From: Thermoguttaceae bacterium | GTDB lineage: Bacteria > Planctomycetota > Planctomycetia > Pirellulales > Thermoguttaceae | DNA: 64,000 bases | Assembly: GCA_017405595.1 (NCBI GenBank) | Contig: JAFRAC010000003.1 | Coordinates: 1 to 64,000 of the forward strand | Direction: 5' to 3' | Part shown: positions 30,340-35,499 of the stretch, piece after piece | How positions within the stretch are numbered: the first letter of the stretch is position 1 | How the letters are laid out: every line of letters starts with the position of its first letter | Position numbers and translations under genes: made by a program | The notes under the pieces: generated by a model | Seen by the model: the letters and a program-made list of their open reading frames with translations, nothing else | The model's database searches: none | What the model was told of the DNA's origin: nothing

Positions 30340-31002
30340 TTAGAAAAGGGCAAGTACCCGTTCCGCCGAAAGCTCGTCAAACGAATGTACCAAAAGGTCT
30401 ACCCCTTCGTACTCTTCCGGTTCGTGCCCGACCGAGAAGAACCCGATGATCTTCATTCCGGCGGCTTTCGCGGCCTGAACGCCGCTGGCCGAGTCGTCGA
30501 TGACCGCGCCGCGGCCGGGGGGAAGCGCCATCTTTTGGGCGCATGCCAGGAAAATATCGGGGGCGGGTTTTGCCCGCGAAACGTCGGTGCCGGAGACCAC
30601 TCCCTTTAAGCAGGGGCGGATTCCGAGCCGGTCGATCACGAAATCGACGTTCACCGCCGGACCCGACGAACCGACCGAGAGGGGGAACCCGCGCTCGGCC
30701 AGCGCGCGCACAAACTCGGCGGCGCCGGGCATTGCGGGGAACCGCTCCTGAATCATCTCGCGGTAGATCGTCTCTTTCCGATCGGCCATCTTGAGAATTT
30801 CGTCTTCGGGAAGGGGCCGGTGCCAGTGCCCCGCGATAATGGCGTCGGAACGCTGCCCGAACGTCTCCTGAAAGAGGCGGGGCGTAAAATCGAAACCGTC
30901 TTCGAGCGCCATCAGCCGCCAGCTCTCGTAATGCACGGGGTTGCTGTTCATCAGAACGCCGTCGATATCGAAGATCACGCCGGGAAGGATCGGTTCGGGC
31001 AT
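30340..31002 (-). CDS. HAD-superfamily phosphatase/phosphoglucomutase-like protein
   Basis: The start at 31002 gives 220 residues with motif I FDIDGV (D12, D14) close to the N-terminus as the family requires; no Shine-Dalgarno is visible before it because a hairpin and U-run (31006-31061) lie there. Motif II SVGSSG, a Lys in SRAKPAPD and motif IV VIDDSASG are present. The helical cap between residues 20 and 85 is of the beta-phosphoglucomutase type. Substrate: probably a sugar phosphate; not determinable. Confidence 0.88.
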   Translation of the reverse strand: MPEPILPGVIFDIDGVLMNSNPVHYESWRLMALEDGFDFTPRLFQETFGQRSDAIIAGHWHRPLPEDEILKMADRKETIYREMIQERFPAMPGAAEFVRALAERGFPLSVGSSGPAVNVDFVIDRLGIRPCLKGVVSGTDVSRAKPAPDIFLACAQKMALPPGRGAVIDDSASGVQAAKAAGMKIIGFFSVGHEPEEYEGVDLLVHSFDELSAERVLALF

Positions 31003-31005
31003 CGG

Positions 31006-31061
31006 AAAAACCGAGAGGTTAGGGGGAAACAACAGTGCCCCAGAAAACAAACGCCTCTCGG
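31006..31061 (-). promoter_or_regulatory. Terminator-like hairpin directly before the HAD gene
   Basis: On the minus strand CCGAGAGG (31061-31054) and CCTCTCGG (31018-31011) form a perfect 8-bp stem around a loop holding a second GGGG/CCCC pair, followed by TTTTT and, 3 nt later, the ATG at 31002. It occludes the usual site of a Shine-Dalgarno. The upstream segment CCTCTCAGG (31100-31092) could pair instead with the CCGAGAGG arm, so alternative folding is possible. Either a second terminator for the small RNA or a regulatory leader. Confidence 0.4.
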
Positions 31062-31083
31062 CCCGGAAGAGCACAAGAGGCAT

Positions 31084-31290
31084 AAAAAAAACCTGAGAGG
31101 AAAAGCATGCCCAACAAACAATTTTGGGAGCCCGCAAGGCAAAGGGGGCGCGTGCAGCATCGAAATGTGATCGCCAAGGGCCGAAGCGAATTGACGCTAT
31201 ACAAAACTTTTGCTGTTTAACCCAGCACCCATCGGGCACATGTAACGACTCCCCCGGATGTGATCCGCAGGCATGCTTCCCTCTCGAGGT
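31084..31290 (-). ncRNA. Candidate ~200-nt structured small RNA (6S-like architecture)
   Basis: A strong promoter (31297-31325) predicts a transcript start near 31290. The transcript runs about 200 nt to a run of eight U (31091-31084). Its first ~20 nt, ACCUCGAGAGG then GAAGCAUGCC, are complementary to its last ~21 nt, GGGCAUGCUU then CCUCUCAGGU, giving a long closing helix directly before the U-run. Inside, GGGAG/CUCCC and GUGC/GCAC pairings continue the rod, with unpaired or locally folded stretches between. No frame with a good start lies in it. Size, closing helix, interior bulges and own promoter/terminator are as in 6S RNA. I could not match the conserved bubble, so the class is open. 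Confidence 0.5.
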
Positions 31291-31296
31291 GCTGTC

Positions 31297-31325
31297 ATTT
31301 TACCATAAGTTTTTGGGGCTGACAA
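31297..31325 (-). promoter_or_regulatory. Promoter of the candidate small RNA
   Basis: On the minus strand TTGTCA (31320-31325), exactly 17 nt, then TAAAAT (31297-31302): five of six matches to consensus in each box, one of the best sigma70 matches in the window. The remaining gene-free sequence to 31640 contains A/T runs near 31340-31375 that could act as an UP-element; nothing else was recognised. Confidence 0.55.
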
Positions 31326-31645
31326 CAATTTCACCCCCTCAAAAAAAATTTTTTTTGGAAAAAAAGGAATTTTTTCATTCTGATCCGGCGGCAGGGGGGG
31401 TGCCGCTCTTCCGGGCTGCCCTCTGCCGGAGATCGCTTCCACCGCTCCGAAGGGGGAGGGATTATAACGAACCGGCGCGGAAAAACTTGAGGAAAAACCG
31501 CTTTTCCCCCCGATTTTTCGGAAATTTCTTCGTAAAAAGAGTGATTAAACCGGCGAGAGCGGCTCTCTAAGGCCCATAATCGTTAAAGTTTACCGAGTTT
31601 AACATAAAAATTCGCAAAAAAGAGGGCGAGCGAGGGGTATTTTTT

Positions 31646-31718
31646 TTGACTATGCCGATTGTAGCGATTATTTTAGTAGTAGGGGATTTATTGAAAATTC
31701 CGGATAAATAGGTAAAAT
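31646..31718 (+). promoter_or_regulatory. Two candidate promoters upstream of the YTV gene
   Basis: TTGACT (31646-31651), 17 nt, TATTTT (31669-31674) forms one. TTGAAA (31691-31696), 16 nt, TAAAAT (31713-31718) forms a second. Leaders would be about 85 and 45 nt. High expression would fit a surface structural protein. Confidence 0.45.
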
Positions 31719-35375: not shown

Positions 35376-35449
35376 GGTGGTCGTAGCTCAGTTGGGAGAG
35401 CATCGGATTGTGGCTCCGAAGGTCGTGGGTTCGAGCCCCATCGACCACC
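35376..35449 (+). tRNA. tRNA-His (anticodon GTG)
   Basis: A full cloverleaf can be folded: acceptor GTGGTCG/CGACCAC with the extra G at -1 typical of tRNA-His; D-arm with AGCTCAGTTGGGAGAGC; anticodon arm TCGGA-TTGTGGC-TCCGA; T-arm GTGGG-TTCGAGC-CCCAT. The discriminator is C and CCA is not encoded. Confidence 0.97.
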
Positions 35450-35499
35450 TTTCCTTCTCTTTTAAGCGTTTTTGAGCCCAAGTTCTCAGGGGGTTCCCA

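Follow-up and report, generated by a model that had tools for sequence, protein, structure and literature searches.

What is encoded between positions 31084 and 31325 of the window (the whole stretch of 64,000 nucleotides from the Thermoguttaceae genome that was analysed), where no plausible gene is found? The downstream gene, encoding a HAD hydrolase, starts near 31003 and a plus-strand gene starts near 31717. The original prediction had described here a near-consensus promoter with a 17-bp spacer, complementary ends of about 20 bp and a U8 tail, forming a discrete unit. All of these elements were located, on the minus strand, which had not been stated and which is the coding strand of the RNA unit:

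31320 to 31325, minus strand: -35 box TTGTCA (consensus scan; identical in congeners G001 and G004)
31297 to 31302, minus strand: -10 box TAAAAT, preceded by TG and so an extended -10 (consensus scan)
31084 to 31290, minus strand: predicted 6S RNA of 207 nt, start at A31290 (best genome-wide match of model R1, described below; conserved in congeners)
31269 to 31290, minus strand: closing stem, 5' strand (fold; cross-species pairing test)
31091 to 31112, minus strand: closing stem, 3' strand (fold; cross-species pairing test)
31084 to 31091, minus strand: U8 run after the closing helix (sequence; T-run at the equivalent site in most homologues)

The two promoter boxes (31325-31297) are separated by 17 nt and match the consensus at 10 of 12 positions. 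The consensus scan gave five promoter-like sites in the region against 0.8 expected. The start at A31290 was placed from the usual promoter spacing, and the length of 207 nt is a prediction made from the promoter and the U-run. From this predicted start the RNA would begin with ACCU, which pairs with the AGGU leading into U8, and the closing helix folds into 21 bp with one bulge in each strand. As the fold of the window RNA is only mildly better than that of shuffled sequences (z -1.9, single sequence), the window sequence taken singly proves little; the RNA of congener G002 reached z -4.3. Long A and T tracts resembling an UP element lie immediately 5' of the -35 box (31333-31380) and recur in the congeners with a different sequence. 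A second terminator-like hairpin (31051-31083, minus strand; GCCTCTT..AGAGGC, z -2.8), followed by TTTGTTTT, is found directly 3' of U8, and the congeners retain a similar GCCTCTT..GGAGGGGC pair. This hairpin may be a back-up terminator or an insulator of the HAD gene.

The comparative evidence is decisive for the reality of the RNA unit. A DNA search of related genomes found it in four congeners at E <= 5e-34 and, in addition, partly in G002. The promoter, the closing helix and the U-run are kept together as one unit in these congeners, and the flanks drift. Moreover, a short motif taken from the conserved part led to six more homologues in genera g48 and g55 of the same family. The matches to a two-mismatch pattern in L032-L036, L040-L043, L050, L051 and L055 were dropped because they lacked the rest of the RNA. 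In nearly all homologues of the window clade and of genus g9 a -10-like box ends 31-37 nt 5' of the core.

The position of the RNA raises the question of whether it could act in cis on the HAD hydrolase gene, as a leader of the riboswitch or attenuator kind. It lies immediately upstream of that gene and on the same strand in G000, G001 and G004, and the neighbours in G001 and G004 are those of the window, with genes for acetolactate synthase-like and HAD proteins to one side and a YTV protein to the other. In G002, however, the neighbours are different and the strand of the RNA carries no gene after it. There the closing helix is entirely unlike in sequence and yet is paired just as well. These points favour a free-standing RNA over a HAD leader. 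The RNA moreover has a U-run of its own at its end, with a second terminator-like hairpin behind it, and we regard the leader explanation as extremely improbable. A scan of genome contigs with the neighbouring HAD protein gave one distant relative. The HAD reading frame (30340-31239, minus strand) continues upstream across the RNA without a stop codon in G000, G001 and G004; this openness is probably due to chance, the conserved start being the internal ATG near 31003.

Which RNA, then, is this free-standing unit? Size and promoter by themselves would be compatible with another housekeeping RNA (RNase P, SRP or tmRNA) or with an unrelated trans-acting small RNA. This is hardly credible given that the RNase P RNA of this genome is located on another contig, that Rfam gave no match and that the locus has homology to 6S RNA. 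ARAGORN, run on the window, found no tmRNA, and the remark in the original prediction that no tmRNA, RNase P or SRP motif could be read agrees with Rfam.

6S RNA shuts down the main RNA polymerase at growth arrest and thereby regulates the transcription machinery globally. It is typically a discrete and abundant transcript of about 180-200 nt, and genomes usually have one gene for it. The search with the Rfam 6S models that had been suggested did not recognise it here. Rfam at gathering and at permissive thresholds returned nothing relevant on the window and nine homologue loci, and RF00013 had no match over the window's own genome even at E 10. The window RNA thus stays below the gathering cut-off of RF00013, which is an operational and not a biological criterion. 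This miss is a limit of the model, for which the sequence is too divergent. In the order, RF00013 matched 12 of 97 genomes at E 1 or better, with four above the cut-off, and one of these four, G010, belongs to the window's own family. The 6S RNAs recognised by RF00013 in the order share with the window RNA the motifs GAGYCGAUAC, GGGUGC, UAUAGC, GAUCACA, CCCCUUG and CGGGCUCYC, identically ordered, and the likeness to the detected Pirellulales 6S RNAs (G010, G033, G157, G175) lies in the first, third, fourth and last of these.

A covariance model, R1, was made from nine Rfam-detected 6S cores of the order, with the window's genus excluded. Its top match in the whole window genome (2.67 Mb, 85% complete) is 31263-31122 on the minus strand, with 31.9 bits and E 3.1e-4, a modest score under a rough calibration; the runner-up reached 13.0 bits. 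At the g48 and g55 loci, found independently with the motif, R1 matched the same place with 28-37 bits, missing only G131. A weak R1 match of G002 on contig 30 (E 0.9) was rejected as a homologue, the true one being on contig 13. A second model, R2, scored 57.8 bits for G002 and 47.7 bits for G131, both loci being outside its training set; when run on the 6S RNA of E. coli, R2 did not recognise it. In addition, bridging sequences exist: in G064 (genus g48) the hairpin of the window type adjoins the standard GAGCCGAUA, and the g9 genomes likewise carry both. Homology to 6S RNA is supported because R1 picks this locus genome-wide and because the bridging sequences, which come from the same family, combine both forms. 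The 6S architecture originally proposed is borne out in this way. We consider it very probable that this genome has its one 6S RNA gene (ssrS) at this locus and that the product is an open-promoter mimic, holding the housekeeping polymerase sequestered until pRNA synthesis releases it. The unit is a real and overlooked 6S gene of presumably ordinary function, and what is new is this member.

The core of the RNA could be assigned by alignment to R1 as follows:

31247 to 31253, minus strand: P2 (downstream helix), 5' strand, pairing with 31126-31132; helix 1 of the R1 structure
31126 to 31132, minus strand: P2, 3' strand GGCUCCC (R1 alignment; near-invariant CGGGCUCYC in planctomycete 6S)
31231 to 31246, minus strand: central bubble, 5' strand
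31133 to 31145, minus strand: central bubble, 3' strand, the site of the -10-like element in 6S
31146 to 31230, minus strand: apical (internal) arm with the conserved UAUAGC / GAUCACA internal loop (R1 helices 4-7)

The RNA would fold as a rod in which the long closing stem is followed in turn by a hairpin, the P2 helix, the central bubble and the apical arm. Over 55 aligned matches, which include one spurious match in L062, 90.8% of cells in the 6S core were paired; shuffling lowered this value to 76.7% and sliding to 50% or less. Because the model itself shaped this alignment, the value should be judged against the shuffles and slides. Two-sided changes in the core numbered 247 against 67, and in helices 4-7 of R1 changes on both sides were seen at 19 of 21 pairs. 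As the model does not cover the closing helix, that helix provides an independent test. At 54 loci its matched flanks paired with -38.0 kcal/mol and flanks swapped across species with -23.1 kcal/mol, a difference equalled in none of 20000 permutations; within the ten loci of the window clade the same test gave 0 of 100000. The closing stem, the central bubble and the apical arm are therefore maintained by compensatory change, and the covariation analysis that had been proposed as a check of the closing helix came out strongly in its favour.

The RNAs of RF00013, with E. coli ssrS, resemble the window RNA in their length of about 200 nt, the closing stem, P2, the central bubble, the apical arm and the start region GAGYCGAU. 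They differ from it in that the window RNA falls under Rfam detection, has an extra hairpin between the closing stem and P2, and carries GAGUCGUU in place of GAGCCGAU. In E. coli, pRNA synthesis on 6S RNA starts at U44 (PMC8876501). This start region aligns, at the level of sequence, with its counterpart in the window RNA, at the border of P2 and the 5' strand of the bubble. The equivalents are CUGAGCCGAU in E. coli, with U44 as its last base, GUGAGCCGAU in the order's other planctomycetes and GGAGUCGUU in the window; their alignment on U44 leads to U31244 as the predicted start and to 5'-AACGACUCCCCCGG as the predicted pRNA. The two features concerned with release are:

31244 to 31257, minus strand: predicted pRNA template, start opposite U31244 (alignment with E. 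coli U44; start assigned by homology)
31255 to 31267, minus strand: hairpin CGGAU-CAC-AUCCG between the closing stem and P2 (genera g1, g9, g48, g55)

By homology, the RNA is expected to be expressed, to bind polymerase and to serve as template for pRNA from the assigned start. A dedicated extended -10 promoter would drive its transcription, on the minus strand, and the RNA would mimic an open promoter. When growth slows, it would fill the active site of polymerase that carries the housekeeping sigma factor, and global transcription would be lowered. Once nucleotides return, the polymerase would copy the RNA from U31244 into the short pRNA, and this synthesis would open P2 and free the enzyme.

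The hairpin deserves attention as it sits exactly in the path of the growing pRNA. The CGGAY..RUCCG form was not found in the other collected 6S RNAs, with the exception of one regex match; the order's other 6S RNAs, G010, G033, G157 and G175 among them, have an unpaired U-rich stretch in its place. Its stem is nearly invariant, with one compensated pair (C-G in L109, U-A elsewhere), and covariation can therefore hardly test it. Release of 6S RNA involves a hairpin at the 3' side of the bubble in the E. coli type and a helix that collapses the bubble in the B. subtilis type. The location of the hairpin leads us to the tentative suggestion, to which we give somewhat less than an even chance, that the four-genus clade has a distinct 6S variant whose release is unlike either type. 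Adjoining the pRNA template, the hairpin offers a natural variant for studying the release of 6S RNA from polymerase, and it is here that a new mechanism might come to light.

It could further be argued that the RNA derives from 6S RNA and is no longer released by pRNA, either because it binds another form of polymerase as Ms1 does or because the hairpin has altered release. The drift is indeed strong, the standard start region having become GAGUCG and a new conserved hairpin having arisen in the pRNA path in all four genera. The Ms1 RNA of Actinobacteria is also a 6S-like rod with a presumed polymerase partner (PMC9130861), a likeness drawn from its description, but Ms1 binds the core enzyme without sigma, and the window RNA matched no Rfam family. 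Against such a loss of release, the template region, P2, both strands of the bubble and the motif of the apical loop are all conserved, and the template GGGGGAGUCG ranks with the best-conserved parts of the RNA, so that we find this very unlikely and retain a 6S RNA released by pRNA synthesis as the preferred reading.

As a single-copy gene, 6S RNA is widespread in the order, as far as model matches indicate: R1 matched 92 of 196 genomes, always at a single place, and R2 matched 149 of 296, again at one place in each. Across 246 genomes of the phylum, R1 at E 0.001 gave no match outside the class. Single 6S candidates were obtained with R1 in ten genomes of f21, a family of the same class and another order (e.g. 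G365:C12:235521-235666), which implies that the 6S gene predates the window's order. About half of the order's genomes had no match with R2, including G005, genera g37, g45 and g52 and much of f7, and several of these are more than 95% complete. The incomplete genomes may miss the gene in their assembly and those above 95% may hold a more divergent 6S RNA or none.

These results bear on earlier reports. The paper on Thermogutta terrifontis found no 6S homologue (PMC5673643), and a screen across bacterial phyla, as cited there, gave 6S RNA as absent from Pirellula staleyi and Rhodopirellula baltica. Genome G105, presumed to be Thermogutta terrifontis, carries a candidate RNA at 768901-769052 (minus strand) with a long closing helix and U8, scoring 33.4 bits with R1 and 64.4 bits with R2, in whose training G105 was included. 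We infer that this species has a 6S RNA and that its reported absence was probably a failure of detection. The view that 6S RNA is absent from these planctomycetes would be corrected in this way, and R1 and R2 allow the order to be re-annotated. With respect to gene neighbourhood, E. coli 6S RNA is adjoined by fau (5-formyltetrahydrofolate cyclo-ligase), whereas no fau gene lies beside the window RNA. The sole tRNA of the window, a tRNA-His (gtg), is located at 35376-35450 on the plus strand.
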